Source: Bdellovibrionales bacterium
GTDB taxonomy: Bacteria > Bdellovibrionota > Bdellovibrionia > Bdellovibrionales > UBA1609
Reading direction: 5' to 3'
Length of the DNA: 33,554 nucleotides
NCBI GenBank assembly: GCA_028819305.1
Contig: JAPPLY010000039.1
Span: forward strand, 1-33,554
The notes under the pieces: model-generated
What the model saw: the letters and a program-made list of their open reading frames with translations, nothing else
Databases searched by the model: none
What the model was told of the DNA's origin: nothing
Program-made: the position numbers and the translations under genes
Part shown: piece by piece, positions 5,950-32,847 of the stretch
How positions within the stretch are numbered: the stretch's first letter is position 1
Layout of the letters: the number at the start of each line of letters is the position of its first letter

Positions 5950-6077
5950 CCAGGCCTTTCAGGAGTTCTAAACTTTTGGATAAATAAAAATCTAACAGGA
6001 AAACCCTGTCTTCGCTTTTGTTCATTTGTCCTGAGTTGTTGACTGATTCTTAAGCCTCTTATAGAAGAGAAGTTACT

Positions 6078-13434: not shown

Positions 13435-13625
13435 TCGTAAACTGAAAGCCCTCTAAGGGCTTTCAGTCCCGCGAAAGCGGGAATCCAGATATGCTAAACT
13501 GGAAGCCATTTTGGTAGCTTTCCGTCCCAAAGAAACACTGTCATTCCCGTGAAGCTTGTCCTCGCGAAAGCGGGGAACGGGAATCTAATCGCCTTGCGCT
13601 CAAGGGCCTAACTCAAATTTTGAAT
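13435..13625 (+). repeat. Repeat family C composite
   Basis: A chain of hairpins: CTGAAAGCCC/GGGCTTTCAG, then CCCGCGAAAGCGGGAATCCAG, a second AAACTGGAAGCC arm, GTCATTCCCG, and GAAGCTTGTCCTCGCGAAAG followed by CGGGGAACGGGAATCTAA. The end AATCGCCTTGCGCTCAAGGG recurs at 13916-13935. Confidence 0.75.
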
Positions 13626-13697
13626 CCTGTTTTCTATTAAAGAAGCTCCATCGCTTTAAGTCAATATATTAAGAATCATTTATTAGTACATATTCTA

Positions 13698-13800
13698 TTC
13701 AGGAAAACAGCTTTGCCTCTATCTGGACAGCCCTTGTCTTTCTTAGGTAGAAAACCAATGGCCTTGGACCCTCTGCCGGCAAACTGTTTTCCTAAAGGAA
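13698..13800 (+). repeat. Palindromic repeat family A, copy 2
   Basis: Begins TTCAGGAAAACAGCTTTGCC and ends CGGCAAACTGTTTTCCTAAA. Closely matches 33307-33412 in the same orientation and 3771-3866 in the opposite one. Confidence 0.85.
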
Positions 13801-13845
13801 TGAAGTTATACAAAAAGGCAATTCGTTACCTTTCCTTCCTTCATA

Positions 13846-13960
13846 AACGGGAAGCTACTTTAGTGGCTTCCCGTCCCGCGAAACTTGTCCCCGCGAAAGC
13901 GGGGAACGGGAATCTAACCACCTTGCGCTCAAGGGCCGAACTCACTTTTGCCCATTGTAT
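13846..13960 (+). repeat. Repeat family C composite, second copy
   Basis: ACGGGAAGCTACTTTAGTGG forms a hairpin, followed by CCCGCGAAACTTGTCCCCGC and GAAAGCGGGGAACGGGAATC, then CACCTTGCGCTCAAGGGCCG. Strong similarity to the right half of the element at 13435-13625. Confidence 0.75.
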
Positions 13961-14079
13961 TTTTCTCTATGTTTCTACCAGCATCTGACTAAATATTCGA
14001 ATCTCGGATTTTTTGTCTCTCAAAAGTACCTTAAAACCCCCTCTTTCCACTACTCCCATCTTGCACATATAAAAGCACC

Positions 14080-15708: not shown

Positions 15709-18700
15709 ATGGATATTTCACAACTGAGAGAGCATCTTACCCATTTCCAGTTTAATAAAATGTTTGAGGTTTTAGGATGGGAGCATCCAACAGGCCCAAA
15801 ATTAGGTGAGTTCAAAATCACTGGTCACCCTGTTTCCTATTCTGTATTAGCAGAGATAAGCAGTGTTCCTGTTTTGAAATTTAGTCAGGACACATTAAAA
15901 CAATTTGAAAGTAACTCTGCAAGAAAGAAATTTCATAAGGAATTGAAAAATCAGCATCACAAACATCTTGCTTTATTTTCTGATGAAGAGAACTTTTTCT
16001 CTCTCTCTTATCTATCCAAAGAAGGGCAAGTCAGAACTCACAGTTACTTTAAGGGACAAAATAGTGACTATTTCATCAGTAAATTAGCAGGGATTCATTT
16101 TGGAATAGAAGATGAACCAAATATATCAGAGATAGGAAACAAGCTGGAAAAAGCTTTTGACACAGAAGAAGTTACAAAAAGATTTTTTGAGAATTTTAAA
16201 AGCAATCATAACAGTTTTTTGAAATATATAGATGGAATAAAAAGCGAAGAGGAAAAAAAATGGTTTGCTTCTTTGATATTAAACCGCTTGATGTTTATTT
16301 GGTTTCTTCAAAAAAAGGGTTTTGTAAATACAGATTTTTATTATTTGGAAACTAAACTTAATGAGAGCAAAAAAAGAGGAAAGGATCGCTACTATTCAGA
16401 ATTTTTGACACTCCTTTTTTTTGAAGGTTTTGCTAAAAAACCTAAAGAGAGAAGCAACCAGGCAACAAAACTTCTTGGAAAAATTAAATATCTAAACGGA
16501 GGGCTGTTTGTTCCCCACCCTATTGAAGAGAAATACAAAAATAAAATTAAAGTTCAAGACAAAGCATTTGATGAGACATTTGTAATTTTTAGGAAATATA
16601 ACTGGAGCTTACAAGGAAAAGAAGGAAAATCTGATAATGAGATCAGCCCGGATATTATGGGGTATATCTTTGAAAAATATATCAATGAACTGCAACAAAA
16701 AAGCCTTGGAGCCTATTATACAAGAGATGAAATTACAAGTTACTTAAGCCGAACTACTATTCAAAAGTGCGTGCTGGAAAAGGTGAATAACAAGGGATAT
16801 AAGTTTGAAACTATAGCGGATATGTTGCACAAGCGGGATGCCCCCTTATGCAAACTACTTTTAACTAATGAAGATAGTATCCTTAATACTTTAACAGTTT
16901 TAGACCCAGCGGTTGGTTCAGGTGCTTTTTTGGTTTCTGCCATGAAGGAGTTAATTGATATTTATAGCCCCATTATTGGCAAAATAGAAACCTTGGCAGA
17001 TAGAGACCTTACAGACTGGCTTAAAAGTTTTAAAGAGAAAAATAAAAGTGCTCTTTATGGAATAAAAAAGAATATTATCCTTAAAAATCTTTATGGTGTG
17101 GATATTATGAAAGAGGCTACAGAAGTTTGTAAGCTAAGACTTTTTCTTTCCCTTGTTAGTTCTGCTCTTAAGATAGAGGAATTAGAGCCTTTGCCCAATA
17201 TGGACTTTAATATTATGTGTGGTAATTCCCTTATAGGTTTTTTAAAAGAAGCAAAACAAGCGCAAGAGGGTGAGGAACAACTTAAATGGGATGCTGTTTT
17301 AGGTGAATCCTATCAACAGATAAAAGATAGATACAACAGGATGGTGAACCAATATAAAAACAAAGCTTTATCTTTTGAAAAATTGAAAGAGCTAAAATAT
17401 AAAATATCAAACTTTATGGAAGAAAACAATTTTAAGCTCAACCGTGTATTAGCGGATAAATGTAAAGAAAAGGGACTAAAATACTCAGAAATTACAGATA
17501 TTCAAGGCAAAAAGAAAATTTTTGGTAAAAAAAGATTTGTATTGCCAGAGGATTTCTCTTCCAAAGAGGATTCCAGAAATTTAAAACCATTTCACTGGGA
17601 TTTTGCTTTTAATGAGATTATGAATAAAGGAGGTTTTGATATTATTATTACTAATCCACCTTGGGAAAAAGTTAAAACAGAGGATAGAGAATTTTTCCAC
17701 AAATACGATAAATCCATTGATAAAAAGAAAACCAAAAAAGAAGCAGTAAAGAAGAAAAAGAAGGAATTATTAAAGCAGTCTGAAATCAAACAAGATTATT
17801 TGAAAACAGAAGAGTTTTATCAGTTCCAAAGAGACTATTTTTCCAAGCTGTATCAATATCAATCCGGCAAAATAATCAACATAAATGGAACAGAAAAACA
17901 AGCCTCAGCGGACATGGATACTTACAGACTTTTTACAGAGAGATGTTTTGAACTCTTAGTTGAAAATGGGTTTTTTGGAATTGTCCTTCCAAGTGGCTTG
18001 CATAAAGATGATGGAGCTATTGGATTAAGAAGAGAGCTGCTTTTTAAAAAAGCAAAGATAGAAGGATTGATTGATTTTCAAAATCAAATGAGTAATGGAA
18101 AAGGAAAGATATTTGAAGGAGTTCATCCACAGTTGAAATTTCTTTTGCTTAATTTAAAAAAAGATAAGCCACAAGATGAGTTTCCCTGTCAATTTATGGA
18201 GAGGGACTTAAATATTCTCAATGAATATAAATTTCCTAAAAATCCTTCAATGAAACAATCTATAAACGAGATAAGAAAACTATCTCCTCGTGATTGTTCT
18301 ATCATTGAGTTTAAAACCCAAAGAGATATCGATTTGTTTAAAAAAACAAGTAAGTTTCCTATGTTAGGGAAACATATAGACAATCTGTGGAATCCTGAAT
18401 TTTATAGTGAACTTCATGAAAAAAATGACTCTCATTTATTCAAAACCCAAAAATTATCAGATGATCATCTACCTCTCTATAAAGGAGAAGCTATTTATCA
18501 ATATGAGTTTAACCATAATCTGTCTTATGTAAATCGCCATGTTAGTATAAATTCAAAAAAAGTACGAGGAAAAGGTTTTCCCTTTAAAAACAAATGTTAT
18601 AAAAATTATCGGTTGGTTATTAGAACTGTAGCCAGTAATACCAATGAAAGAAGCCTCATTTCTGCTGTCATTCCAAAAAATAGATTTTTCGCACATAGTT

Positions 18701-19236
18701 TACATGGAACTTATATAGGATCAAGAAGAACTATTCAAAAGAACAAGTATATGCTTGTACTTCAAGTATTTTTAAATAGCTTTGTTGTTGATTACCTTAT
18801 TAGAAAAAGAATATCTGCAAATATTACCCAAAACTATATCAAGTCTTTAAAAATTCCAAGACTCACAGAAAAAGACCCTTTTTTTAAAGAGCTTGTTGAA
18901 AGATCAGCAAAACTCACTTGTATTGGAAAAGAATTTAATGAACTGGCTGATGAAGTTGGCATCCAAAGAGGTGGGGTTAAAGATGAACAGGAACGTTGGA
19001 GAATACAAGGTGAAATAGATGCTATAGTAGCTTATGTTTATGGTCTAAATTTGGATGAATTTGAATATATCCTTAGCACTTTTACAACCGGTAAAAATCA
19101 AGAACGCTTACAAACTCTTAAAAAACATGCCCTTGCAGCTTTTAAAAAACGCAGAAAACAGAAAAGTGTATCAAACAAGGCTGATCCCTCCCGTAAAGCT
19201 TTAAAAAAAATTCAGCCCTTAAGAAAAACCAGTTGA
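15709..19236 (+). CDS. Eco57I-type N6-adenine DNA methyltransferase (type IIG/BREX-like)
   Basis: Large DNA methylase that adds a methyl group to adenine, probably the self-marking arm of a restriction or anti-phage system. In 1175 residues: an N-terminal helical region with LILNRLMFIWFLQKKGF (about 190-205); the conserved SPDIMGYIFEKYI and LGAYYTRDEI; SAM-binding motif I DPAVGSGAFL at 399-408; catalytic NPPW at 649-652; then a putative target-recognition region (HLPLYKGEAIYQYEFN, VIRTVASNTNERSLI, and LNSFVVDYLIRKRIS). I see no PD-(D/E)XK nuclease motif in the N-terminal part, so unlike classical type IIG enzymes it may rely on separate nucleases. The start ATG has no clear ribosome-binding site. 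Two small genes and a PLD-SNF2 helicase follow on the same strand. Confidence 0.85.
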   Translation: MDISQLREHLTHFQFNKMFEVLGWEHPTGPKLGEFKITGHPVSYSVLAEISSVPVLKFSQDTLKQFESNSARKKFHKELKNQHHKHLALFSDEENFFSLSYLSKEGQVRTHSYFKGQNSDYFISKLAGIHFGIEDEPNISEIGNKLEKAFDTEEVTKRFFENFKSNHNSFLKYIDGIKSEEEKKWFASLILNRLMFIWFLQKKGFVNTDFYYLETKLNESKKRGKDRYYSEFLTLLFFEGFAKKPKERSNQATKLLGKIKYLNGGLFVPHPIEEKYKNKIKVQDKAFDETFVIFRKYNWSLQGKEGKSDNEISPDIMGYIFEKYINELQQKSLGAYYTRDEITSYLSRTTIQKCVLEKVNNKGYKFETIADMLHKRDAPLCKLLLTNEDSILNTLTVLDPAVGSGAFLVSAMKELIDIYSPIIGKIETLADRDLTDWLKSFKEKNKSALYGIKKNIILKNLYGVDIMKEATEVCKLRLFLSLVSSALKIEELEPLPNMDFNIMCGNSLIGFLKEAKQAQEGEEQLKWDAVLGESYQQIKDRYNRMVNQYKNKALSFEKLKELKYKISNFMEENNFKLNRVLADKCKEKGLKYSEITDIQGKKKIFGKKRFVLPEDFSSKEDSRNLKPFHWDFAFNEIMNKGGFDIIITNPPWEKVKTEDREFFHKYDKSIDKKKTKKEAVKKKKKELLKQSEIKQDYLKTEEFYQFQRDYFSKLYQYQSGKIININGTEKQASADMDTYRLFTERCFELLVENGFFGIVLPSGLHKDDGAIGLRRELLFKKAKIEGLIDFQNQMSNGKGKIFEGVHPQLKFLLLNLKKDKPQDEFPCQFMERDLNILNEYKFPKNPSMKQSINEIRKLSPRDCSIIEFKTQRDIDLFKKTSKFPMLGKHIDNLWNPEFYSELHEKNDSHLFKTQKLSDDHLPLYKGEAIYQYEFNHNLSYVNRHVSINSKKVRGKGFPFKNKCYKNYRLVIRTVASNTNERSLISAVIPKNRFFAHSLHGTYIGSRRTIQKNKYMLVLQVFLNSFVVDYLIRKRISANITQNYIKSLKIPRLTEKDPFFKELVERSAKLTCIGKEFNELADEVGIQRGGVKDEQERWRIQGEIDAIVAYVYGLNLDEFEYILSTFTTGKNQERLQTLKKHALAAFKKRRKQKSVSNKADPSRKALKKIQPLRKTS

Positions 19237-19620
19237 TATTTTTTGCTTGTAGAGAAAAAATGGTATAAAGTCTTAATAAAAGCTTATTTTTTTCAAACAA
19301 AGCGTCAAAATGTGCTTTTTAAAGCGTTTTTTAATTTGGGATTTTATAATTTTAAATATACAATAGAAGAAATTTTCTTTATATGACAAAGTAAACCACA
19401 TTCAAAGACAGGTCTAACAGACAGATTGTGTTAAAAAACAATCCCTTGATCTGCCGGAAATTGAAAACTTAATGACAATTAATAGCCATTTGGAAAAAAG
19501 TCATAAAACAAAGATATCTTATCAAAAAAAGAAAGAACTCAGCTACATCACTTTTGTTTAAACAAATTAATAAAGAGGGCTTTTTAGTTTTAAAAAACTA
19601 AAATCAAACCGGAGGCTTTT
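19237..19620 (+). other. Gap inside the island; possible short remnant and hairpin
   Basis: About 380 AT-rich bases. A coding-like stretch at about 19435-19560 (LDLPEIENLMTINSHLEKSH) ends in TAA and may be the tail of a lost gene. A perfect inverted repeat TTTTAGTTTT/AAAACTAAAA (19582-19603) has a 2-bp loop and lies just before the GGAGG ribosome-binding site of the next gene, so it could influence its expression. Confidence 0.4.
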
Positions 19621-19824
19621 ATGTCCAATCAAAATAAAGAGCAAGTAGCAAAAAACAGTCAAGAGGACCAGAAAAAAAAACCAACATACTGGGAAAGAGT
19701 GATCCAAGGAAAAGGGACAGTCGCTGAACCCTGGCCAACAGCAGAAGAACTATGGAATGATCCCGAAGTGCAAAAATCTATTCAAGATCATAATCAATCA
19801 GTCAAAAAAAGAAGTGGATTATAA
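19621..19824 (+). CDS. Small polar protein of unknown function in the defence-like island
   Basis: A 67-residue, highly charged protein without hydrophobic segments or cysteines, carrying an aromatic patch (KPTYWERVIQGKGTVAEPWP). I do not recognise it. A strong GGAGG lies about six bases before the ATG, which argues that it is expressed. It ends 6 bp before the membrane-protein gene, and both lie between the methylase and the helicase, so they are likely co-transcribed. A role as regulator or accessory of the island is inference only. Confidence 0.6.
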   Translation: MSNQNKEQVAKNSQEDQKKKPTYWERVIQGKGTVAEPWPTAEELWNDPEVQKSIQDHNQSVKKRSGL

Positions 19825-19830
19825 GAGCGT

Positions 19831-20478
19831 ATGTTGGATTTGCATAATGTTCTATGGGTGATCCCTGGAGTGATTTTTATTCATTTTTATAATAAAAGAA
19901 GACCTGACGATACAATCAGCTTGTCCGGCTGGCCATATTTGTTTTTTCTTGTCGTTATAGCGGCACTCACCTGGCTACCTGCTGAATTTATAGTCAAATC
20001 TGACCTCTTGAATATTAAAACCTTTTTGGTCAGCTATCTTGGCGTCAACGAAAACACAATTATATTGCTGATTGCAATTATTTGCGCTTTTATGTGGTTC
20101 TTATTTGCCCAAGGGGGAGCTGTTTCCCGATGGATATTCTTACCGGCATACGACAACTTTTATAAAAAATGTATTGAATGGGAAAACAAAGAAATTTTAC
20201 TCACTCTTAAAAATGAAAAAGCTTATCACTGTCTTTTATGGAAATACCCTGAAAATCCAAAATCAAGACATGAATCACAAACCATCTCCATAATACCTTA
20301 TAAAAGCGGATACAGAGATGAGAAAACAAAAGAGGTGGTATGGAACACTTATTATCCTGAATACCGAGATAAATCCGATCTTGTCAATATGGAAGTGATT
20401 ATTCCAAGAACTGAAATAATCACTTTCGGAAAATTTAGCAAGAGAACTTTTGAACATTTTGAAAAACAACAATCTTAA
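19831..20478 (+). CDS. Three-helix membrane protein of unknown function in the island
   Basis: The 215-residue product has three hydrophobic segments (about 5-19, 34-52 and 76-93, the last ILLIAIICAFMWFLF) followed by a cytoplasmic domain of about 110 residues. The domain has a beta-rich look, starting with ILLTLKNEKAYHCLLWKYP and containing IPYKSGYRDEKTKEVVW. I cannot assign a family; small membrane proteins with a similar SGYRDE-T strand are faintly familiar but unverified. It lies 39 bp before the helicase gene. A membrane protein between a methylase and a helicase is unusual for classical restriction systems and could be a sensor or effector. Confidence 0.65.
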   Translation: MLDLHNVLWVIPGVIFIHFYNKRRPDDTISLSGWPYLFFLVVIAALTWLPAEFIVKSDLLNIKTFLVSYLGVNENTIILLIAIICAFMWFLFAQGGAVSRWIFLPAYDNFYKKCIEWENKEILLTLKNEKAYHCLLWKYPENPKSRHESQTISIIPYKSGYRDEKTKEVVWNTYYPEYRDKSDLVNMEVIIPRTEIITFGKFSKRTFEHFEKQQS

Positions 20479-20517
20479 CTGCATAATAAAGTATAACTTG
20501 AGAGTGAAATCCAACCA

Positions 20518-23500
20518 ATGCCAAAAATATACGACAATAAGGAAGTTTCTTTTTTATCCGGCTTAAGTGATGCTTTAGGCCGCTCTCATAGGTCTGATAT
20601 TTGCACAGCTTACTTTAATCTTCGTGGCTGGAAAAAAATAGCCTCTCTCATTGATAAATATAAAGGAGAAGCAGGAAATCAATGTCGCCTGCTCTTAGGA
20701 ATGTATGCTCCTGACTGGCAACTAAGAAAAGAACTTTTACAGGATGAAAGAGAAGTTTGGGATGCTGATAATAAAAAAGCCAGAAGACTAAGAGCAAAGG
20801 CTCTTAAAAAATTTAAGAATCAGTTAATGACAGGTACTCCCTCTAATGAGGATGAGCAGGGCTTAAGAAAATTAGCTCGTCAGTTAAAAGAAAAAAAAGT
20901 AATCGTAAAATGTTTTACCCGCCATCCTCTTCATGCAAAGCTCTATTTAACTTTTAATCAAACAGAATTTGCCGGCAGAATTGGTTTTCTGGGGAGCAGT
21001 AATTTAACTTATGCCGGGTTGGAAAAAAATGGGGAGCTTAATATAGATGTTTTAGATCAGGAACCTTGCAAAAATTTAAGTAAATGGTTTGAGGACAAAT
21101 GGCAAGATCAATTTAGCTTGGACATATCACAAGAGATTATCAACCTTATTGAAGAGAGTTGGGCTGGGGAAGAGTTATTGCTTCCTTATCATATTTATAT
21201 GAAAATGGCTTGGCATCTTTCAGAAGATGCCAGAAAAGGACTAACAGACTTTTTTATCCCAAAAGAACTGAAAAACACCCTCTTTGATTTTCAATCTGCC
21301 GCTGTTCGTATAGCCGCTCGCCATGTTTATTATAAAAACGGAGTGTTGATTGGGGATGTGGTGGGACTTGGGAAAACCCTTATGGCTATAGCTACGGCTA
21401 AAATTCTGGAGGAGGAACATGGTTGGCAAAGTCTTATTTTATGTCCTAAGAATTTATATGCTATGTGGGATGAGCATATTCAAAAATGGCGCATTAGAGG
21501 CAGAGTTATCCCTATAAGTCAAGTTCAACAAAAACTACCTGATCTAAAAAGGCATCATATTGTAATTATAGATGAAAGCCATAATTTAAGAAATCCCCTT
21601 GGCAAAAGGTATCAGGTAGTTAAGGATTATATTACTCAAAATGACAGTAAATGCATTTTGCTTTCAGCTACCCCTTATAATAAGACTTATAAAGATTTAT
21701 CAAGCCAATTAGGACTTTTTATTGATTCTGATGCAGATTTAGGTATTCGCCCTAATAGATTTTTAAAAGAAGAAGGAAAGACTTTGGAAGGGCTTACTTC
21801 AACACTTAAAGCCTTTGAGGAATCCCCTTACCCGGAAGATTGGCAACAGCTTATGGCTCAATTTTTAGTGCGAAGAACAAGAAGTTTTATTAAAGACAAC
21901 TACGGAAAAAAGAATAAAAAAGGCAGGTATTATATAGAGGGTTCCGATGGAGGAAAAAAGTTTTTTCCTAAAAGAGTGGCCAAAACTATTTCATACAAAG
22001 TAGATGAACAATATAAAAGGCTTTTTTCAGAAGAGGTTGTAGATATGATAAACAATTTAAAATTAGCCAGATACGATTTAAACCAGTATAAGAAAAAGAA
22101 CTTAACAGGGCTTTCAATAGAAGAGAAAAATCTTTTTAAAGACTTAGAACGATCCCGTGCTCATCCTAAAGGATTTTGTCGGATTAACCTTTTTAAAAGA
22201 CTGGAAAGCAGTGGTTTTTCTTTTTTGCAATCTGTCCAGAGGCATATTTTAAGAAATTGTATTTTTATTTATGCTATTAACACCGGACAAGACCTTATAG
22301 TGGGTGAAAAAAGTGGTGAAGTGATTGCTGACGCCTTTGACGACAAAGAAGGAGGCATGATTGGCTTATCGGAAGAGGGTGAAGAGACAAGTTGGTTTTT
22401 TACAGATTTTAACTCATTTTATAAAAAAGCAGAAGAAGCTTATAAAAAATATAAAGAAAACACCAGCCGGAGCTTACGCTGGATTTCTTCTTCTTATTTT
22501 ACGGATAATCTAAAAGAAGATTTAAAAAAAGATACGGAGCTGTTTATTTCTCTCTTAAAGAAGTCAGAGAACTGGAATCCAGAGAAAGACCTTAAACTGA
22601 AAACACTTGAGGAGTTACTAAAAAACAGGATAGAAAAAAAGGTTTTGGTTTTTACTCAGTCCAGAGAGACAGCGGAGTATTTAATAAATCAACTTCAAAA
22701 TCGGGGATTAAAAAACTTAAGCCTTATAACAGGAGGAATGGATAATATTCAACCCATTATAAAACGATTTAGTTCGATCGGGTTTGAAAGTTCTGGATTT
22801 AAAGACCTGGATGCTCGGAGGAAAGAACCGAAAAGTACGGAAAAGCTTGTCCCCGTGAAAATGGGGATAATACCCGATGGGTATAACCCTATCAGTAATG
22901 AATTTGACATAAAAAAATCCAAAGAATCTGAAATTGATATTTTAATAACAACGGATGTTTTAAGTGAGGGGCAGAATCTTCAGGATTGTAATACAGTGAT
23001 AAATTACGATCTCCCTTGGGCTATTATTAAGCTGATTCAAAGGGTAGGACGAATTGACCGAATTGGACAAGAATCAGATAAAATTTTTTGCCATTCCTTT
23101 ATGCCTGATGAGGATTTAGAAAGACAAATCCAATTAAGGAATCGTATCCAAAATCGGCTTAAAGAAAATGCGGAGGTAATAGGAACAGATGAGCAATTTT
23201 TTGAAAATGAAAGGCAAGTTTTAATAGATTTATATAACGAAAAATCAGAAACTTTGGAAAAGGAAATGGCGGATGATATTGACCTCTCTTCTTTTGCCTT
23301 GGAGATATGGAACAAGGGTATAAAAAAAGACCCCACTTTGGAAGAAATAGTCAAGAATATGCCGGATGTAGTTCATTCATCAAAAGAGATTGAAAAGAAA
23401 GATCAATCTGAAGGAGTGTTGCTTTTTGCAAAATCTCATATAAACAATTATTTACTTTATCTTAATGAGGAAGGAAAAAGCATTAAAGAAGACCAGATGA

Positions 23501-23925
23501 GTATTTTAAAGCAAGCGGAATGCCAGCCGGATACCAGGCCTTTAAAAAGAACGGAAAAACATTATGAGATAGTTAAGTCAGGTTTGGAGGGTATCCATAA
23601 AAATCTTAGTAAATTTGGTTTATCCAACAGACTGGGAACCAGCCGAAACCCGAGAAGAAAACTCTTTGAAAAACTGGAGGGTATTTCTGAAAAAGACGAT
23701 GAAGAAAAACAAATTATGGATGATATTCATCGTTATCCTTTATCCAATGAGGCTGAAAATACTCTTAAAAGAATGTTCAGGAGAAAAATATCAGATAAGG
23801 AAATCCTTAACCTCGTTATGGAAAAATATAAGAACGAAACTCTTGTGAATAAAAAAGAGACTAAAAAAATGGATGAAACACCCCGGATTATATGCTCAAT
23901 GGGGCTTTTAAAAAAATCTACATAA
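20518..23925 (+). CDS. PLD-SNF2 helicase-like protein of the defence-like island
   Basis: An ATP-driven DNA translocase with an N-terminal phospholipase D-type nuclease-like domain, 1135 residues. PLD-like part (1-175): His139-Ala-Lys141 and GSSN (159-162), but the HKD aspartate is absent. SNF2 core: Walker A GDVVGLGKT (279-287), DESH (352-355), LLSATPYNKTYKD; C-terminal lobe: LVFTQSRETAEYL, LITGGM, ITTDVLSEGQNLQD and LIQRVGRIDRIGQ. This architecture occurs in restriction and anti-phage clusters beside methylases. Residues about 755-790, just before motif V, are encoded by a family C repeat and are not expected in relatives. A weak GAGAG precedes the ATG. Confidence 0.85.
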   Translation: MPKIYDNKEVSFLSGLSDALGRSHRSDICTAYFNLRGWKKIASLIDKYKGEAGNQCRLLLGMYAPDWQLRKELLQDEREVWDADNKKARRLRAKALKKFKNQLMTGTPSNEDEQGLRKLARQLKEKKVIVKCFTRHPLHAKLYLTFNQTEFAGRIGFLGSSNLTYAGLEKNGELNIDVLDQEPCKNLSKWFEDKWQDQFSLDISQEIINLIEESWAGEELLLPYHIYMKMAWHLSEDARKGLTDFFIPKELKNTLFDFQSAAVRIAARHVYYKNGVLIGDVVGLGKTLMAIATAKILEEEHGWQSLILCPKNLYAMWDEHIQKWRIRGRVIPISQVQQKLPDLKRHHIVIIDESHNLRNPLGKRYQVVKDYITQNDSKCILLSATPYNKTYKDLSSQLGLFIDSDADLGIRPNRFLKEEGKTLEGLTSTLKAFEESPYPEDWQQLMAQFLVRRTRSFIKDNYGKKNKKGRYYIEGSDGGKKFFPKRVAKTISYKVDEQYKRLFSEEVVDMINNLKLARYDLNQYKKKNLTGLSIEEKNLFKDLERSRAHPKGFCRINLFKRLESSGFSFLQSVQRHILRNCIFIYAINTGQDLIVGEKSGEVIADAFDDKEGGMIGLSEEGEETSWFFTDFNSFYKKAEEAYKKYKENTSRSLRWISSSYFTDNLKEDLKKDTELFISLLKKSENWNPEKDLKLKTLEELLKNRIEKKVLVFTQSRETAEYLINQLQNRGLKNLSLITGGMDNIQPIIKRFSSIGFESSGFKDLDARRKEPKSTEKLVPVKMGIIPDGYNPISNEFDIKKSKESEIDILITTDVLSEGQNLQDCNTVINYDLPWAIIKLIQRVGRIDRIGQESDKIFCHSFMPDEDLERQIQLRNRIQNRLKENAEVIGTDEQFFENERQVLIDLYNEKSETLEKEMADDIDLSSFALEIWNKGIKKDPTLEEIVKNMPDVVHSSKEIEKKDQSEGVLLFAKSHINNYLLYLNEEGKSIKEDQMSILKQAECQPDTRPLKRTEKHYEIVKSGLEGIHKNLSKFGLSNRLGTSRNPRRKLFEKLEGISEKDDEEKQIMDDIHRYPLSNEAENTLKRMFRRKISDKEILNLVMEKYKNETLVNKKETKKMDETPRIICSMGLLKKST
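22781..22886 (+). repeat. Repeat family C inserted in frame in the helicase gene
   Basis: The right part (22839-22886, GGAAAAGCTTGTCCCCGTGA through GGGTATAA) aligns with 9406-9453. The left part (22781-22814, GGTTTGAAAGTTCTGGATTT) aligns with intergenic 29698-29730. The helicase reading frame stays open across it. Confidence 0.75.
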
Positions 23926-23999
23926 AATATTTTATAAATCTAAAAGTTTAACTATACCAAACCAGTATAAGTTTTATGAAACGGCTTTTTTTACACCCG

Positions 24000-24092
24000 A
24001 GATTCCCGCTTTCGCGGGACGGGAAGCCACCAAAGTGGCTTTCAGTTTAGCAAATCTGGATTCCCATTTTCACGGGAATGACAAGAGCGGGG
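24000..24092 (-). repeat. Repeat family C composite between helicase and HNH genes
   Basis: ATTCCCGCTTTCGCGGGA, then GAAGCCACCAAAGTGGCTTTC, AGTTTAGCAAATCTGG and ATTCCCATTTTCACGGGAAT: three consecutive hairpins. The reverse complement matches units at 13435-13560. The small palindrome TATACCAAACCAGTATA lies nearby at 23952-23968. Confidence 0.8.
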
Positions 24093-24143
24093 AAAGAACA
24101 CCGGAGATTTGACAAAGAAAGAAACTTGTAGCAATTTTTCCTT

Positions 24144-24422
24144 ATGAAAGAATTATTCCTACCGGCGGATAAAGAATATATCAAGAAAGAAAGACAAAAA
24201 GCTAAAGAACTTAAAAAAACACTTTGGTGGCAAAACAAGCTGAATAAAAAAGAATGTTATTACTGTACAAAAAAATTTGATGTAAAAAACCTGAGTATGG
24301 ATCATCTGGTTCCCTTAGTACGCGGAGGGCGCAGCACAAAAAACAATGTAGTGGTAGCTTGTAAAAAATGTAATTCTGAAAAAAAATACAAAACTTTGGT
24401 TGAAATTCGTCTGAATAAGTAG
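24144..24422 (+). CDS. HNH endonuclease
   Basis: A 92-residue protein with a helical basic N-terminus and a complete HNH fold: Cys-Tyr-Tyr-Cys (CYYC) zinc pair, MDHLVPLVRGGRSTKNN (catalytic His and Asn) and a second pair in CKKCN. Such small McrA-like nucleases occur as homing-type, phage or restriction enzymes. It sits 220 bp beyond the helicase on the same strand, separated by a repeat, so it may or may not belong to the island. No clear ribosome-binding site precedes the ATG. Confidence 0.75.
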   Translation: MKELFLPADKEYIKKERQKAKELKKTLWWQNKLNKKECYYCTKKFDVKNLSMDHLVPLVRGGRSTKNNVVVACKKCNSEKKYKTLVEIRLNK

Positions 24423-24573: not shown

Positions 24574-25074
24574 TTAGAAGTGTCTTCTCTTTCTTCCATA
24601 ATGATTTTTTTTGTTTTTATCAGTACCCCTTTTTCTTTTCTTTTCCCCTTTTTCAGAGACTTGTATTTTATTGATCTCCTGATCCTGTTCAACCAATATC
24701 CCTCCTAGAGAAGAACTACCCTCTGCTTTATCTTTAGAAAGCTGTTTTAAAAGTTGTTTTTTAACAGCCCCTCCCTGTTTGTGTCTTTCCACCTGTTCTG
24801 ACAAGTCAACAGTAACATCACCAAAACAAAACAACTGACAGGATAAGCGCCTGTTATCAATAAAGTATCCTCCTCCTATTAGTTCCACTTCCCGGGAGGA
24901 TGGGGGAAGAATATGGGCCTCCCCTTTTACAATATAGACACGACATTCTGCACAGGCACACATACCGTTACAGGATGAACTAACCGGTAGTTTATTCTCT
25001 TTCGCTAAATCCATTACACTCTGCCCTGGTTTTATTTCCAAAGACATGTTTTGAGGTAAAAATTTAACCTTCAT
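24574..25074 (-). CDS. fdx: ISC-type 2Fe-2S ferredoxin with basic C-terminal extension
   Basis: Electron carrier of the adrenodoxin/Fdx class, used mainly for iron-sulfur cluster assembly. The N-terminal ~105 residues form the ferredoxin fold with ligands Cys35, Cys41, Cys44 (SCNGMCACAEC) and Cys79 (RRLSCQ). The protein is 166 residues, against about 110 for typical Fdx. The extra C-terminal tail is highly charged and ends in a Lys/Arg/Asn-rich stretch (KGEKKRKRGTDKNKKN), suggesting nucleic-acid or membrane contact. Start by homology. It follows tyrS on the same strand after about 130 bp. Confidence 0.85.
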   Translation of the reverse strand: MKVKFLPQNMSLEIKPGQSVMDLAKENKLPVSSSCNGMCACAECRVYIVKGEAHILPPSSREVELIGGGYFIDNRRLSCQLFCFGDVTVDLSEQVERHKQGGAVKKQLLKQLSKDKAEGSSSLGGILVEQDQEINKIQVSEKGEKKRKRGTDKNKKNHYGRKRRHF

Positions 25075-25207: not shown

Positions 25208-26455
25208 CTACATTACTTTTATTTTAGCAAACCTTCTCTTTCCCGCTTTCAGAATAAATTCGTCTCCCTTTTTTAAATCTATTTTGATTTTATCATCCTT
25301 GATTTTTTCTCCATTAATCTCCACAGCAGAGCCTTGAACCAGCCGCCGGGCCTCACTTGTAGAGGGAGAAAATCCCACCTCACGGATAAGATGGCATATC
25401 CACAACCCCTCCTCTTTAGGAGAAAAAATATGTTCCTGAATATCAGAAGGCATACCTTGCCTGGAAAAAATATTTTCAAAATGCTCTTTTTCTTTTTCCG
25501 CCGTAGAAGAATCATAAAACTGCCTTACAAAAAAACAAGCCAACTCTTTTTTAACTTCCATAGGATGCGCTTTCCCCGCTTTTAAGTCTTCCTTTAACTG
25601 TCTTATTTCCTCATTCGTCTTATCTGTGAGAAGTTCGTAATAACGAATCATCAATGGGTCACTGAGCTTCATTGTTTTACCGAAGATCTCCCTGGGAGAA
25701 TCTTCAATAGCAATATAATTATCATAGCTTTTGGACATTTTTTGCACTCCATCCGTGCCTTCTAAAACCGGTACTGTTAAAACACACTGCGGTTCCTGTC
25801 CGCTTCTTTTTTGAAGTTCCCTCCCTACCAGGAGATTAAACAACTGGTCTGTGCCCCCTAATTCCACATCCGCTTTTAAAACAACGGAATCATAACCCTG
25901 TACAAGAGGATACAAAAATTCATGAACACAGATGGATTTATTTGTTTTAAAACGTTTGGAAAAATCATCCCTTTCCAACATACGCGCGACTGTGTACTTA
26001 CTTGCTACAAAAATCAACTCTCCAGCTAGCATTTTATCCGTCCATTGGGAATTAAAACATATAGTTGTTTTATTCCGATCCAAAATTTTAAAAACCTGTC
26101 TGGAATAAGTTTTTGCATTCTCTTTGACCTCGGACGAGGTTAAAACCGGTCGCGTTTTATCCGAACCAGAGGGATCTCCTATTTGCGCTGTAAAATCCCC
26201 AATAAGAAAAATAATCTGATGCCCTAAATTCTGAAACTGCTTAAGTTTATTTAATAATACAGCGTGCCCTAAATGCAAATCGGGCCGACTGGGATCGAAA
26301 CCCGCTTTAATTTTTAAAGGTTTTTTCTGCGTAAAACTCTTCACCAGCTTTTTCAAAAGTTCCTCTTCCGAAACAAAATCAACAACTCCCGAACGGAGGT
26401 GATTCAACTGCTCTTCTGGACTCATCGGTTGGAAAGAAAAGGAAAATTTCTTCAT
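25208..26455 (-). CDS. tyrS: Tyrosyl-tRNA synthetase
   Basis: Charges tRNA-Tyr. The 415-residue class I synthetase contains the HIGH-type motif HLGH (residues 61-64), the KMSKS loop (239-243), tyrosine-pocket elements including [10 protein letters not shown], and a C-terminal S4 RNA-binding domain ([19 protein letters not shown]). ATG at 26455 is chosen since the preceding in-frame codon is TTG and AGAGG lies eight bases upstream. It follows rny at a distance of about 190 bp, a gap largely occupied by a family B repeat, so a shared transcript would carry that palindrome. Confidence 0.95.
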
Positions 26456-26489
26456 CAAAAAACCTCTATTTCCTTAAAGTCCACTCCAA

Positions 26490-26606
26490 TTATACCAGTC
26501 CGGTTTAATCCTTTCTTTCGCAAGGGCAAGGTTTTCCGGCTGTCTTTTTTTTCTCTCCAGGGAAGAAAGTCTCTGAAGGGCCTTATTTCTATGCCGGTTC
26601 GGTATA
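26490..26606 (-). repeat. Palindromic repeat family B, copy 3
   Basis: Ends are TTATACCAGTCCGGTTTAAT (26490-) and ATGCCGGTTCGGTATATAA (-26609), inverted relative to each other. The centre carries the TTTTTTTTCTCTCCAGGGAA and GTCTCTGAAGG segments shared with the copy in ygfA. Located between rny and tyrS. Confidence 0.85.
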
Positions 26607-26649: not shown

Positions 26650-28227
26650 CTATCTGGCTTGCTCCACCATTCTACACTCCCGCACCACACTGACTGTTAG
26701 CTGACCAGGTTCATCCATTTCTTTTGTTATTTTCTCAGCGATATCACGGCTCAACATAAAAGATTGCTCATCCGTTACTTTTCCATTATCCACCAATACC
26801 CTAATTTCTTTTCCTGTTCTAATAGCAAAACTCCTGATCACTCCATCAAAACTATTAGCTACAGACTCCATATCCTTCATCCTGCTAATATAATTTTCTA
26901 TAACCTCTCTTCGTGCCCCTGGACGCTCACGAAAGAGATTATGAGCGGACTGTACAATATGGTCCACAATAGACTGGGCAGGAGCTTCCCCTCTATGACA
27001 ACGAATGGCCTGACACACAGTTGATGACTCTCCATGTTTCCTGGCATACTCCGCTCCTACAAGGGAATAACTGCCTTCTATACGATGATCTACACCCAAA
27101 CCAACAGCATGAAAGAGACCGGCTCTCTTTGCTATTTTTTCATCAGACCCCAACTCATGAGCAATAAGACCCGCTAAATGGGCCACTTCAATACTACTCT
27201 TAAGAACATTATTCCCTTCTATAAACCGATACTTTAAAGAGCCTAACACCTCTATAAGAGCCGGTTTTACATCATGAATACCTAAGTCAAAACACACTTG
27301 CCTTCCTTCTTCCCCCATAGAAACAAATATGTTTCTTTTGCTCTTTCCAACCACTTCTTCAATACGAGCGGGATGCACACGCCCCTCCTCTAGCAATTGA
27401 TTAATAGATCGCACGGCTACTTCTCTGCGAACAGAGTCAAAACCAGAAATTAAAATAATCTCTTGGCTTTCATCAATTATAATATCCACACCACAAGCGG
27501 ACTCTAAAGCCCGGATATTACGTCCTTCCCGGCCAATAATTTTTCCTTTTGTCTCCTCCCCTTTTATCGGAATGGAAGTGGTGGTTCTTTCCGTAGAAAC
27601 TTCCGAAGCAAAACGAGCTATAGCCTGAGATAAAATTAATTTTGCCTTTTTCTCGGATTCTTTTTTTAGTTTCTTTTCCATATCTATTAATTGGGGAACT
27701 ATCTCTTTTTGTACTTCCTCTTTCATGTTTCTTTTTATTTCTTCCCTCGCCTGTTCCTTGGTTAAACTAGCCGCTTTTTCCATTATAGTATTTAGCTCCT
27801 CCCACTTTTCATTTGTTTTTTTAGTCGCTTTTTTCAGTTGTTGTTCCACTATATGAGAGGCTTCTTTTTGTTTTTTCAAATCTTTAATCTGATTCTCCAG
27901 CTCTTCTGTTTTTCTTCTTAAATCTCTTTCCAACCGGGTTTTCCGTCTCTCTGTTTGATATTTTATATCCTCTATTTGTTTCTTTTCCTTACGTATTTCG
28001 ACTTCCACCTGGCTTTTCATCTTTCGTTCCCTATCTCTAGCCCTGGAAAGAGCACTCTTTTCCATTCGCATAGCTTTAGACTTAGCCTGATTAATAATAA
28101 AATTTACTTCTTTTTTAAGATGCTTTTTTCTACGCTTTTGAAAAAGACGCAAATAAAATAGGAAAACAAGAGAACCCAGGAAAAATCCTGATAAAGCACT
28201 CACCAACATCCAAAATGAATCCATCAT
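26650..28227 (-). CDS. rny: RNase Y homologue with degenerate HD site
   Basis: RNase Y is a membrane-anchored endoribonuclease central to mRNA decay. All domains are present in 525 residues: N-terminal TM helix (about 5-27), long charged coiled coil (30-205), KH domain with GKIIGREGRNIRALE, then the HD domain and the conserved C-terminal RPGARRE to RIMV-like region. The metal-binding residues are largely lost: where active enzymes have KHS, HD, GSH, HHGD and AAADA, this one has KSS (Ser344), His373-Ala374, GSY (Tyr387), CHRGE (Arg412) and SAHN (His429). The frame is intact, so the protein is probably made but without nuclease activity. It begins 5 bp after ygfA with no good ribosome-binding site, suggesting coupling. 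Confidence 0.9.
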   Translation of the reverse strand: MMDSFWMLVSALSGFFLGSLVFLFYLRLFQKRRKKHLKKEVNFIINQAKSKAMRMEKSALSRARDRERKMKSQVEVEIRKEKKQIEDIKYQTERRKTRLERDLRRKTEELENQIKDLKKQKEASHIVEQQLKKATKKTNEKWEELNTIMEKAASLTKEQAREEIKRNMKEEVQKEIVPQLIDMEKKLKKESEKKAKLILSQAIARFASEVSTERTTTSIPIKGEETKGKIIGREGRNIRALESACGVDIIIDESQEIILISGFDSVRREVAVRSINQLLEEGRVHPARIEEVVGKSKRNIFVSMGEEGRQVCFDLGIHDVKPALIEVLGSLKYRFIEGNNVLKSSIEVAHLAGLIAHELGSDEKIAKRAGLFHAVGLGVDHRIEGSYSLVGAEYARKHGESSTVCQAIRCHRGEAPAQSIVDHIVQSAHNLFRERPGARREVIENYISRMKDMESVANSFDGVIRSFAIRTGKEIRVLVDNGKVTDEQSFMLSRDIAEKITKEMDEPGQLTVSVVRECRMVEQAR

Positions 28228-28232
28228 TGTGG

Positions 28233-28877
28233 CTATACCCCCACTTTCTTCTTCACATTAAACATTTGTAATCGGCTGGAAAGAACAAACATAAAATGAT
28301 CTGTCAAAACAGCATCCATTCCAATATCATGGTTCTCCTCTGGTAAAGCAGAATTACATATTTGAAAAGCATGAACCAAACCAAGCTTTAACCCTGTGAA
28401 CTGAGATAAAACACGATCATAAAAACCCTTACCCCGCCCTAACCGCCGCCCTTCCCGATCAAAGGCCAATGCCGGAACAAAGCACACATCAATTTCAGAT
28501 AAAGGTATCTTTTTTGCACCAGAAGGCTGCCAGCCCCCCCAGGGGCTTTTTTCCCAATCTTTACCCTTATCCCAAATAGCTGAAACAAAGCCATAGCTCC
28601 CCTCTTTCATTTGAGGGAAAACAAATGTTAATTTTTGATGGTATTTTCTGTGAAACACAGCGGGAGATAGCTCCCCTGGCAGAGCGTGATAACTCGCTAC
28701 AGTTAATCCTTTTTTCCAAATATCCAATTGAGATAGCATCTCTGAAAGCAGATGATCCGATGGCTTAGCAAAGTCCCCTTTTGTCCCTTTTTTATACTGC
28801 CGAACTTTCTCCCGAAATGTATCTCTCAGCTTCCCTTTTGAGGATTTATACCACTCCGGTTGGCCTTTGCCAGCCAT
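28233..28877 (-). CDS. ygfA: 5-formyltetrahydrofolate cyclo-ligase
   Basis: Converts 5-formyl-THF to 5,10-methenyl-THF with ATP. The product contains KGKLRDTFREKV at the N-terminus, the substrate-site VASYHALPGELSP and the ATP-binding GRGKGFYDR. From ATG 28877 it has 214 residues, near the family norm. The open frame extends to a TTG at 29033 (266 residues), but the added part is mostly family B repeat, including the peptide repeat SLGDLCSLGDLCSLG, and the TTG lies too close to its GGGGGAG. I prefer ATG 28877 (GGGAG ten bases upstream), which itself lies inside the repeat. Downstream rny starts 5 bp later. The zapA-ygfA order is common in proteobacteria. Confidence 0.85.
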   Translation of the reverse strand: MAGKGQPEWYKSSKGKLRDTFREKVRQYKKGTKGDFAKPSDHLLSEMLSQLDIWKKGLTVASYHALPGELSPAVFHRKYHQKLTFVFPQMKEGSYGFVSAIWDKGKDWEKSPWGGWQPSGAKKIPLSEIDVCFVPALAFDREGRRLGRGKGFYDRVLSQFTGLKLGLVHAFQICNSALPEENHDIGMDAVLTDHFMFVLSSRLQMFNVKKKVGV

Positions 28878-28978
28878 CTGCTTTTTTCTCCCGAGGGAAC
28901 ACAAGTCCCCGAGGGAACACAAGTCCCCAAGGGAAAAAAATCTCTGAAGAAGACCATTTCCTGACCGGTTCGGTATAA
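28846..28978 (-). repeat. Palindromic repeat family B, copy 4, at the ygfA 5' end
   Basis: Minus strand begins TTATACCGAACCGGTCAGGA and ends CAACCGGAGTGGTATAAA. The centre contains an 18-bp unit (GAGGGAACACAAGTCCCC on plus) twice in tandem at about 28893-28928. The ygfA start codon and ribosome-binding site fall within it. Confidence 0.85.
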
Positions 28979-29062
28979 TAGAGGCCCATTTTGAAAAAAG
29001 AGCTTCTGGTTTTAGATGAATAACTTGAGACAAAATCTCCCCCTTTTTTTATAAAAAACCGT

Positions 29063-29094
29063 AAAAAATAACAGAGATTTTAAATCTGTTATTT
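29063..29094 (-). terminator. Terminator overlapping the zapA stop codon
   Basis: AAATAACAGA (29066-29075) and TCTGTTATTT (29085-29094) form a 10-bp stem with a 9-nt loop. On the minus strand it is followed by six T. The stem contains the zapA stop codon. This suggests that ygfA-rny is transcribed separately. Confidence 0.6.
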
Positions 29095-29403
29095 TGATCC
29101 GCTTTTAGAGGAAGACTTTAATTCAGAAAAAACAGATTGAGTGGAAGACTCCAGATGATCTAATTTCCGCCGTAAAGCTTTTTTGAGACAGACCAACTCC
29201 TCAGCCATGTTCAGGCAGGATAAAGCAAATGTTTTTTGCGTAGATAAGGCCCGATTATTTGCTTTTGAAGAACGGATCTGCTGTTCAACCACTTGAACAA
29301 TTTCATTCAAAGTATTAGAATTATGGGCAGACTTTACTCGTAAAGAGCAGTCTCCAATTCGTACTTCGTAAGTTTTTAATGGATTTTTTGAAATAGACAT
29401 CAT
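29089..29403 (-). CDS. zapA: Cell division protein ZapA
   Basis: ZapA binds and crosslinks FtsZ protofilaments at the division site. The 104-residue product has the N-terminal beta-rich globular domain (KTYEVRIGDCSLRVKSAHNS) followed by a long helix that forms the dimer/tetramer coiled coil (from about residue 55, AELVCLKKALRRKL-like heptads). ATG 29403 is preferred, with GGAAG about nine bases upstream; the longer frame would start at a TTG at 29418. The gene heads the minus-strand zapA, ygfA, rny group and ends in a terminator hairpin. Confidence 0.8.
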   Translation of the reverse strand: MMSISKNPLKTYEVRIGDCSLRVKSAHNSNTLNEIVQVVEQQIRSSKANNRALSTQKTFALSCLNMAEELVCLKKALRRKLDHLESSTQSVFSELKSSSKSGSK

Positions 29404-29825
29404 TTTTGAAGCTTCCAAAATATTTAAAGTTTCCCTCTAAAACTAAAATTAAATTAAAGTAGGGTGAGAGTCAAATTTTCAATTCTTATTTCTTAATCCG
29501 GGCTTCTTTATTACCAATTCTACATATTTCCCTGATAAAAAATGTAAATCCTTAAAAAGACAGGGAAATATACTGATTTTGTGTGATTCTCGTATTCACA
29601 ATGATAAGGTTTTGTGGTTTCTACAAACTTCTTTTTAAAGGTAAAAAGAGGCCAAAAACGAATCCTCATCTTCCGCTTCCCGCTTTCGCGGGGACAAGGT
29701 TTGAAATTCTAGACTTAAAGGCTTGGTTGCCAAATTTTGAATAAGAAAAAATTTTCAGAACCAACTAACAGACTGAATACATAAAAATTGAAGTTAGAAA
29801 TAAAACAGCCGATACGGAAAATATT
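29404..29825. other. Divergent intergenic region between zapA and the subtilase gene
   Basis: About 420 AT-rich bases that must hold the promoters of both divergent genes; I cannot single out a convincing one. The only recognised element is a family C fragment at 29677-29736. Confidence 0.45.
29677..29736 (+). repeat. Repeat family C fragment
   Basis: TTCCCGCTTTCGCGGGGACA then AGGTTTGAAATTCTAGACTT and AAAGGCTTGGTTGC. The hairpin arm is the usual family C core, and the second part matches the left part of the copy inside the helicase gene (22781-22814). Confidence 0.65.
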
Positions 29826-31283
29826 ATGGATAAGATTCTAATTATAGCTTTTAGCCTTTTTATTCCTCTAGTTGGAGTTGGGGGGGCGGAAAAGAATAAA
29901 AATACCCTACTTCAAAACAGTAAAGCAAAACAACCAGACGCTGCTAAAATACAACAGAGTTTAAAAGAAAGCGCTATACCCGGTATTACGCCGTCTCAAA
30001 GACATATTAGTCTAGGCACACCAAAACCGGCAAAAGAGCCGGAAAAAGAAGTTCAGCTTATTATGAGCGATCCTCTCATGAAGAAAAAGTGGGATTTACA
30101 AAAAACCAATGTAAAAGACGCCTGGCTCAAATTTTCTAAAGGAAACAAAGATATTATTGTAGCTGTTATAGATACAGGTACAGATATAAATCATCCTGAT
30201 CTTAAAGCGAATATATGGATCAACAAAAAAGAAATCCCAGGAAACGGTTTAGACGATGACAAAAACGGCTATGTAGATGATATAAACGGATGGAACTTTG
30301 TTAAAAACAACAATAATATTCAAGACATTCATGGACACGGTACCCACATAGCCGGAATTATCGGAGCCGAAGGGGGTAATGGCATTGGTATTAGTGGGGT
30401 TGCTCCTAAAGTGAGCTTAATGACGCTTAAATATTATGATATAAATGATAACGGAAAAAATAACTTAAATAATACAATAAAAGCCATTCATTACGCCGTT
30501 CAAAACGGAGCCCATATTATAAACTACTCTGGCGGCGGCTTAAATGGAAATAAAAGGGAAAAACAAGCTATTCAAGCGGCAGAGCGAAAAGGTATTCTTT
30601 TTGTTGCCGCATCTGGAAATGAAAAATCAAACATGGATAAAAGTGGCTATTACCCGGCTAAATATGAACTGAGTAATATCCTCCCTGTAACAGCTACAGA
30701 TCATTCAGATAAAGTGTTAAAAAGCAGCAACTGGGGACAAAAAACCGTCCACAAATCAGCCCCCGGTTACAATATTTTATCCACCTTACCAGGAGGAAAA
30801 TACGGACACATGACAGGAACTTCACAGGCAACAGCCGTAGCCACAGGAGCAGCGGTACTCGTGATGGATTATTACAAAAATAAAACAGCCCATTTTGTTA
30901 TAAAACAGCTAAAAATGACAGGAGATATTAAACAAAGTTTGGTTGGAAAAACAAGCCAAAGAAGACGGCTTAACATTTTTAAAGCATTACAAGCCCGAGG
31001 GAAAAACCTTAACTTCATGGATGAAGCTGTGACAGATCCCAGCGGAAAAGTGTTCGACTCTGAAAGAGATATTTCTTCTTTTGTTCAAGGAAGCCCTCTC
31101 AGCCTAAAAGATTTATCGGAAATAAAAATGGTGAACGAAGTTCTACAAGAAAAACAATCTGAGATAAATCCATCAAAAAAAGAAACTGTAAAAAACACTA
31201 AAAACCCAGGTCGCAGTCCCTCCTCTAAAAACCAAAACAAACAAACCTTTTTTCTAAAAAGATGGTTCTTTAACAAAAAATAA
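29826..31283 (+). CDS. Secreted subtilisin-like serine protease (S8)
   Basis: Secreted endopeptidase of the subtilase family, 485 residues. Signal peptide 1-21 (LIIAFSLFIPLVGVGG), a short pro-region, then the catalytic domain from about 95 to 390 with Asp116 (VAVIDTGTD), His171 (HGHGTHIAG), oxyanion Asn265 (VAASGNE) and Ser333 (MTGTSQATA). All triad residues are present, so it should be active. The C-terminal ~95 residues are polar and lysine-rich, without a recognised domain, ending in a basic KRWFFNKK. A weak GGAAAA precedes the start. Two secreted proteins are encoded on the opposite strand downstream; no direct link is shown. Confidence 0.92.
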   Translation: MDKILIIAFSLFIPLVGVGGAEKNKNTLLQNSKAKQPDAAKIQQSLKESAIPGITPSQRHISLGTPKPAKEPEKEVQLIMSDPLMKKKWDLQKTNVKDAWLKFSKGNKDIIVAVIDTGTDINHPDLKANIWINKKEIPGNGLDDDKNGYVDDINGWNFVKNNNNIQDIHGHGTHIAGIIGAEGGNGIGISGVAPKVSLMTLKYYDINDNGKNNLNNTIKAIHYAVQNGAHIINYSGGGLNGNKREKQAIQAAERKGILFVAASGNEKSNMDKSGYYPAKYELSNILPVTATDHSDKVLKSSNWGQKTVHKSAPGYNILSTLPGGKYGHMTGTSQATAVATGAAVLVMDYYKNKTAHFVIKQLKMTGDIKQSLVGKTSQRRRLNIFKALQARGKNLNFMDEAVTDPSGKVFDSERDISSFVQGSPLSLKDLSEIKMVNEVLQEKQSEINPSKKETVKNTKNPGRSPSSKNQNKQTFFLKRWFFNKK

Positions 31284-32025: not shown

Positions 32026-32847
32026 TCAAAAGAAACAAGCTCCATCATAACTATCACCAAAAGAAGAACCACCACCCCCGGAACCGGAACCAGGGCCAGC
32101 ATCGTAACTGTCGGGAGAACAAGGTTTTATGAGTTCAGGATGAAGCTCCTCTATAAAAGGGATACTTTCTGCTTCATCGTCTTTCGAAGCATATTCAAGT
32201 GGTGGCTGAGGCTCATCATCATCATCATTTGGCTGAGACTTAGGCTGATAAGGCTCAGGCACAAGCAGGTAAGGCCAATCATCAGGATCCCATGGTCTAA
32301 CAGCCATTTCCATTTGTTTTATAAGGAACCCACTTCTTTTAAGACATTTTATTTGCACCTGGAGCGATTCTGTTCTTCTACACTGTTCAACACGAGAAAG
32401 CATAAGTTGGATGCAATCATCCTGATCCACTTCTGCATTATTTAGGCAAAAATCCACCGCCGCTTCTTTTGCCCTTTTATCTAGTAAAGTTAAAGGAGGT
32501 GGAAATTCCTCATAAGGATCCTTATCAGGACCATCAAACGGTCTAACAAAAGGCAACTCTCCAACATCTTTAGGAACTTCAGTACCAAAAGATAACTTTT
32601 GTACCTCTACCTTAATATAAGGCACCCAAGGTTCAAAAAGATCACCAGGGCCTAACTGGCTTTGTGTCTCTAAATTAATAGATGCTACACTTAAAAATGG
32701 CATAAACAACAAAATAGTTAAAAGTATTCTTATCTTGTCTGATCCCTGCTTTAGCAAGAACATACTTGGTGGTTTCTGTGAACTTCTTTCCAAAGGCGAA
32801 CGGGTTAAGGAGTTCGCTATTTCTATATCAGTTCGGTATAATTTCAT
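32026..32847 (-). CDS. Secreted protein of unknown function with repeat-derived N-terminus
   Basis: Unrecognised 273-residue protein. A signal peptide (IRILLTILLFMPFLSVA) starts only at about residue 39; residues 3-36 are encoded by a family B repeat that begins directly after ATG-AAA. The ribosome-binding site AGGAGA (32853-32858) is upstream of the repeat, so translation most likely starts at 32847, though Met29 is possible. The mature part has Pro-rich stretches, a four-Cys helical region (FCLNNAEVDQDDCI, CRRTE, IKCLKRSG) and a Gly/Ser-rich tail ending CFF. The adjacent small gene also has Gly/Pro-rich and cysteine segments, so the pair may be functionally linked. Confidence 0.65.
   Translation of the reverse strand: MKLYRTDIEIANSLTRSPLERSSQKPPSMFLLKQGSDKIRILLTILLFMPFLSVASINLETQSQLGPGDLFEPWVPYIKVEVQKLSFGTEVPKDVGELPFVRPFDGPDKDPYEEFPPPLTLLDKRAKEAAVDFCLNNAEVDQDDCIQLMLSRVEQCRRTESLQVQIKCLKRSGFLIKQMEMAVRPWDPDDWPYLLVPEPYQPKSQPNDDDDEPQPPLEYASKDDEAESIPFIEELHPELIKPCSPDSYDAGPGSGSGGGGSSFGDSYDGACFF
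32730..32842 (-). repeat. Palindromic repeat family B, copy 5, inside a secreted-protein gene
   Basis: Minus strand starts TTATACCGAACTGATATAGA (right after ATG-AAA), matching the family B end at 28978. The other end is degenerate (GATCAGACAAGATAA). The gene's frame stays open through the element. Confidence 0.7.

Follow-up and report, generated by a model that had tools for sequence, protein, structure and literature searches.

The rnyA Locus

The window (the whole stretch of DNA analyzed here, 33,554 nucleotides) carries on its minus strand an RNase Y homolog with a degenerate HD metal site and an intact KH domain, which we call rnyA (positions 26650-28227; A for copies at this locus in any genome). 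An earlier note on this DNA described the frame as intact, and the ORF indeed occupies exactly these positions, encodes 525 amino acids, and has no internal stop. Its neighbors lie on the same strand: a zapA-like gene (29089-29418) and ygfA (5-formyltetrahydrofolate cyclo-ligase-like; 28233-29033) upstream, and tyrS (tyrosyl-tRNA synthetase; 25208-26458) and a ferredoxin-like gene (24574-25074) downstream; ygfA is named from the earlier note and family knowledge, the other three by eye. This zapA-ygfA-rnyA-tyrS-ferredoxin arrangement is conserved, in whole or in part, around A in the genomes checked across the order. Elsewhere in the window, a subtilisin-like (S8) serine protease gene (29826-31283, opposite strand; by eye) adjoins the zapA-ygfA-rny cluster; a row of genes at 15709-24422, read by eye as encoding a large N6-adenine methyltransferase-like protein, a small membrane protein, a PLD/SNF2-helicase-like protein, and an HNH-like product, is possibly a restriction or defense island; and near-identical GC-rich palindromic repeats of the CCCGCGAAAGCGGG type lie between genes (13458-14000, 24001-24081, and 29673-29701).

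rnyA scores 509.6 bits against NCBIfam TIGR03319 (RNase_Y; residues 10-525), above the curated equivalog cut-off of 454.35, and matches the Pfam models RNase_Y_N, KH_1, and HD. The N-terminal transmembrane helix and coiled coil are in place (PF12072, 67.6 bits), and an N-terminal hydrophobic segment is found in 109 of 110 A copies. The KH domain is conserved, as the earlier note held: by sequence comparison, its GxxG loop (GREGRN, residues 232-237; 27517-27534, minus strand) is intact. An AlphaFold2 model based on an alignment of 39 homologs has a long helical N-terminus (helices 2-152 and 157-210) followed by the KH domain, the HD domain, and a C-terminal α/β part; most HD blocks have a pLDDT of 86-93, falling to 76 around residues 381-390 and to 64-67 around the lost last Asp, and in this model the HD fold appears to be retained though the metal site is gone. 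Foldseek searches with full-length A and B models were mostly uninformative owing to the coiled coil: the KH part of rnyA resembles exosome and Dim2 KH domains and its HD part 2PQ7, and the model of the second copy, B, gave weak matches only.

A Dismantled Metal Site

HD phosphohydrolases bind metal through an H..HD..D motif (PMC8177086); in rnyA this motif reads S344, H373-A374, and H429. When aligned with B. subtilis RNase Y and more than 100 relatives, rnyA proves to have lost four of the six ligands of the H..HD..H..H..D series: the first His is Ser344 (AGT; 27196-27198), the HD pair is His373-Ala374 with the Asp gone (CAT GCT; 27106-27111), the GSH His is Tyr387 (TAT; 27067-27069), and the last Asp (AADA) is His429 (CAT; 26941-26943; all on the minus strand). 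H373 and H411 remain, the latter at the head of H411 R412 G413 E414, which replaces HHGD (26986-26997, minus strand), and counted as retained since the first His of the HH pair is taken as the ligand; the Lys that follows the HD pair is Leu377. The earlier note was therefore right about an RNase Y homolog with a dismantled HD site but went too far in having the ligands replaced nearly everywhere.

The alignment rules out HD ligands at shifted positions, none being displaced, and a frameshift is ruled out by the alignment together with the nearly identical HD replacements in two other genomes of the same genus (G001 and G002), which also show that the rnyA state is not a sequencing error. From its sequence, rnyA is predicted to be nuclease-dead and membrane-tethered; the hydrophobic segment, the intact KH domain, and the lost ligands support, as a prediction, the membrane-tethered RNA-binding protein without nuclease activity that the earlier note had envisaged.

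A Second RNase Y

RNase Y initiates mRNA decay in many bacteria. If the copy at the conserved locus is dead, what takes its place? The earlier note had raised this question, suggesting a search for a second rny or an rne; the genome encodes an RNase E/G as well as a second RNase Y whose HD site is intact, so nuclease activity as such is not missing. A search with the RNase_Y_N model gave one copy only, and the reading of the source genome as devoid of a second RNase Y was discarded when a full-length B profile gave rnyB (the second copy; B for such copies in any genome) at G000:C6:16850-18505 (= L143:4851-6527), unlinked to rnyA. All HD ligands of rnyB are present (HFHCQEV, GMLHDIGKAMDH, GGHAV, AHHHD, and AADALSGARPGAR) and its KH domain lacks GxxG, with LLGPHFSKMK where rnyA reads IIGREGRNIR: the genome that holds rnyA thus holds a partner with an intact HD site and the complementary KH loss. 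The models of both A and B comprise a long helix, KH, and HD, and nearly all A and B copies have an N-terminal hydrophobic segment.

The profile match to rnyB is split in two by an in-frame repeat insertion (L143 about 5930-6060; G000:C6:17929-18059), which adds approximately 35-40 residues as a low-confidence loop between HD helices. This dispersed repeat of approximately 80 bp has 25 matches in the genome, with window copies at 26491-26606, 28930-28977, 2515-2562, and 32793-32840; one lies between tyrS and rnyA, and another is apparently in frame near the ygfA start. It is reminiscent of the protein-inserted palindromic elements found in Rickettsia.

The RNase E/G gene of the source genome (G000:C75) has counterparts among the 15 genomes tested, 13 of which carry one. 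RNase J is a poor candidate for a replacement, with no match above the family cut-off in 15 genomes and one strong match below it, in G036. Judging by these gene inventories, mRNA decay need not rely on A for catalysis.

Reciprocal Loss Across Genomes

RNase Y copies were extracted from 104 near-complete genomes of the source's order and from others of the order and phylum. The HD site of A is broken in all 92 genomes that have B and intact in 35 of the 39 without a detected B; the lineage-wide persistence that the earlier note proposed to look for is thus found, and the congeners carry the same state. All six HD ligands are present in 93/93 readable B copies. The KH loop follows the opposite pattern: GxxG is kept in 129/129 readable A or single-copy proteins but only in 3/90 B proteins, having been lost in 87. 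The HD loss described in the earlier note is real, yet its interpretation was incomplete: it is one side, the one visible in the window, of a reciprocal split. The A/B association is very strong when phylogeny is ignored (Fisher p = 1e-27), and the tree cuts it to approximately one origin in the order. A hold-out drawn after the rule had been formed agrees with it: seven of seven further genomes with both copies fit, and in an eighth (G221) B is intact and A was not found.

Four of the 39 genomes without a detected B (G038, G085, G101, and G113) depart from the rule. In the sole RNase Y found in G038 (G038:C42; L022, L249, and L252), the frame is interrupted after KH and before HD; the two pieces together contain the ligand residues, and the split into two frames is either an assembly error or a real break. 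In G085, G101, and G113 A is broken and B was not found; the G085 assembly, with about 10 contigs, is 99% complete, and the RNase Y fragment of G101 is A-like. G089 and G108 were counted as having B from B-type fragments.

The extent of the damage varies: among the 92 paired genomes, A has lost four ligands in 43 and only one, the last Asp, in 33. H2 is kept in 110 and H4 in 106 of 112 A-type copies, and Tyr recurs at the H3 position in many A lineages. The residues that replace D2 differ by lineage (A, S, C, T, N, G, V, L, E, or Y), and those at H1 and D5 likewise differ between lineages. No readable B lacks any of the H1, D2, H3, D5, and second-His ligands, and neither does any single-copy gene read, bar the exception assemblies named above.

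Among 293 genomes of the phylum, no B-type match was seen outside the order, judged by score. Two RNase Y genes each are present in G242 and G243 of family f16, elsewhere in the phylum (L247, L248, L250, and L251): the first copy has a GREGRN KH loop and has lost the last Asp (to Asn) along with other ligands; the second keeps its HD site whole, and its KH loop is altered to GRMGRN or GKSGRN, still GxxG. A quick tree places the two B-like genes with B, at the end of a very long branch, and the two A-like genes apart from A. The change at the HD site runs in the same direction as in the order, and a second split possibly took place there.

Origin and Selection

All duplicated A copies fall into a single clade (support 97) nested within the intact single-copy A genes, and all B copies into another (support 100). 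In the free tree B falls outside the A clade, a placement likely caused by long-branch attraction: joining B to duplicated A raises the log-likelihood by 4.3, and the AU test does not reject the resulting topology (p 0.611). As the joined tree is at least as likely as the free one, an old or foreign origin of B was set aside and a single duplication is preferred. Intact single-copy genomes (G043, G004, G011, G016, and G023) share the synteny of degenerate-A genomes, and B is located elsewhere among variable neighbors; A therefore marks the ancestral locus, and it is the ancestral-locus gene that became non-cutting. On the A tree, loss of D5 (the last Asp) needs one change, D2 (the HD-pair Asp) at least 10, H1 11, H3 12, and the second His of HHxD 10. 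These sequence comparisons fit a history in which rny would have been duplicated once, in an ancestor of most of the order; rnyA would have lost the last metal-binding Asp first, in an early Asp-to-Asn step, and then most other HD ligands, by repeated erosion in many separate lineages, while retaining the transmembrane helix, coiled coil, and KH domain; and rnyB, having moved elsewhere, would have kept every HD ligand but not the GxxG loop of its KH domain.

Is A simply on its way out? Stepwise and repeated ligand loss is what a duplicate decaying toward a pseudogene might show, but the frames are intact, the synteny is conserved, the KH identity equals that of single-copy orthologs, and dN/dS is far below 1 even in HD; we regard such decay as very improbable. 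rnyA is under purifying selection: within the genus, NG86 dN/dS is approximately 0.03 for KH and 0.06 for HD, rough values since dS (0.7-2.3) is near saturation, and the constraint that the earlier note had suggested checking is thus present. Purifying selection on HD, the near-universal retention of H2 and H4, and the recurrent Tyr at H3 could also mean that A's HD domain still performs a reaction or binds a ligand, in a rebuilt site made of H373, H411, and new residues such as Y387 and H429. The lineage-to-lineage variation of the H1, D2, and D5 replacements is, however, what relaxed constraint would produce, and we think a rebuilt site improbable, if less so than pseudogene decay.

Each copy is relaxed in the domain that the other copy kept. 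Mean pairwise identity is 0.75 (KH) and 0.80 (HD) in single-copy A, 0.74 and 0.56 in duplicated A, and 0.37 and 0.72 in B; coiled-coil identity is 0.21 among B versus 0.41 among A. With the TyrS distance removed by regression, A and B distances still correlate across 12 genomes (partial r 0.58, permutation p 0.0002), a result that is suggestive only because the sample is small and shared rate effects could explain it.

A Proposed Two-Subunit RNase Y

In B. subtilis, RNase Y dimerizes through a parallel coiled coil, and its AlphaFold dimer has a hole near KH, a possible RNA entrance (PMC9775385). A His-to-Ala change in the HD pair inactivates H. pylori RNase Y, and GxxG is the backbone-binding motif of KH domains (PMC11821409). 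Together with the H..HD..D rule, these reports imply that A should be nuclease-dead and B catalytic but poor in KH-type binding. We consider it probable that complementary degeneration produced an RNase Y encoded by two genes, in which rnyA supplies the subunit that binds RNA without cutting it and B does the cutting. Given the parallel coiled-coil dimer of B. subtilis, the two proteins would most simply work as a membrane-bound A/B hetero-oligomer: the KH domain of A would take single-stranded RNA and the HD domain of B would cleave it, so that the assembly would restore one full enzyme. Three elements of this picture are inferred: the lack of catalysis by A, the activity of B together with its poor RNA binding when alone, and a physical association of the two. 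On balance, we also lean toward the broader proposition that RNase Y split once in the order, and possibly again elsewhere in the phylum, to yield an obligate two-subunit enzyme with RNA binding and catalysis on separate paralogs, the pair forming a natural separation-of-function series that runs from one lost ligand to all six.

Some observations sit uneasily with this proposal. The A and B genes are unlinked and the surroundings of B vary; the loss of GxxG does not prove that B has lost RNA binding; and G085, G101, and G113 have a broken A with no B found. Against a dead A stand the 33 of 92 pairs in which only the last Asp is gone, given that Bd1817, an unconventional Bdellovibrio HD-GYP protein, may offer a precedent: like A, it belongs to the HD superfamily, has its last Asp replaced (by Asn), and has no detected c-di-GMP activity, but it is not an RNase Y and still binds two irons (PMC8177086). 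The main rival of the hetero-oligomer is a pair of separate homo-oligomers with separate jobs, with A as a nuclease-free, membrane-bound KH RNA-binder that serves as a regulator or as a scaffold for a degradosome, and B as an independently acting nuclease with an altered KH domain that binds other RNAs or proteins. The lack of linkage would suit such an arrangement, as would the KH-like secondary structure kept in the B model and the strong divergence of the B coiled coil, whose dimer interface may differ. Yet the A/B loss is reciprocal rather than random, neither gene has been seen lost alone in near-complete genomes, bar a few assemblies, and a scaffolding role for A would leave the release of B's KH from constraint unexplained; we hold separate homo-oligomers to be possible but rather unlikely.

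If the two-subunit split is real, bacteria that are probably predatory, and that have cultured members, carry the two functions of RNase Y on separate genes. One could then test if KH serves HD in cis or in trans, and if a dimer needs one active site or two. There is also a consequence for annotation: the rny gene at the conserved locus passes the automatic ribonuclease Y rule, yet the likely nuclease is the other copy.

Comparison with Known Systems

As the earlier note surmised, such a loss in rny appears to be undescribed: no published account of an A/B RNase Y pair was found in the open-access literature (subscription papers and preprints lay outside the scope), and a sequence search of the PDB with a B-type profile found no RNase Y chain. 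rnyA shares the order transmembrane helix-coiled coil-KH-HD-C-terminal part with B. subtilis RNase Y (rny/ymdA, TIGR03319) and scores above the equivalog cut-off of that family; in B. subtilis, however, the KH and HD sites are on one polypeptide that forms a homodimer, whereas here they are on different gene products. Among other ribonucleases, RNases J1 and J2 of Firmicutes are paralogs that form a hetero-oligomer with one weakly active partner, but they belong to the unrelated metallo-β-lactamase family, and we know of no reciprocal loss of RNA-binding and catalytic sites between them. Although its fold is unrelated and its hetero-assembly is shown by structures, whereas we infer that of A and B, the archaeal (αβ)2 tRNA-splicing endonuclease EndA took a similar route: a homo-oligomeric endoribonuclease was duplicated and subfunctionalized into catalytic and structural subunits (PMC6379350).
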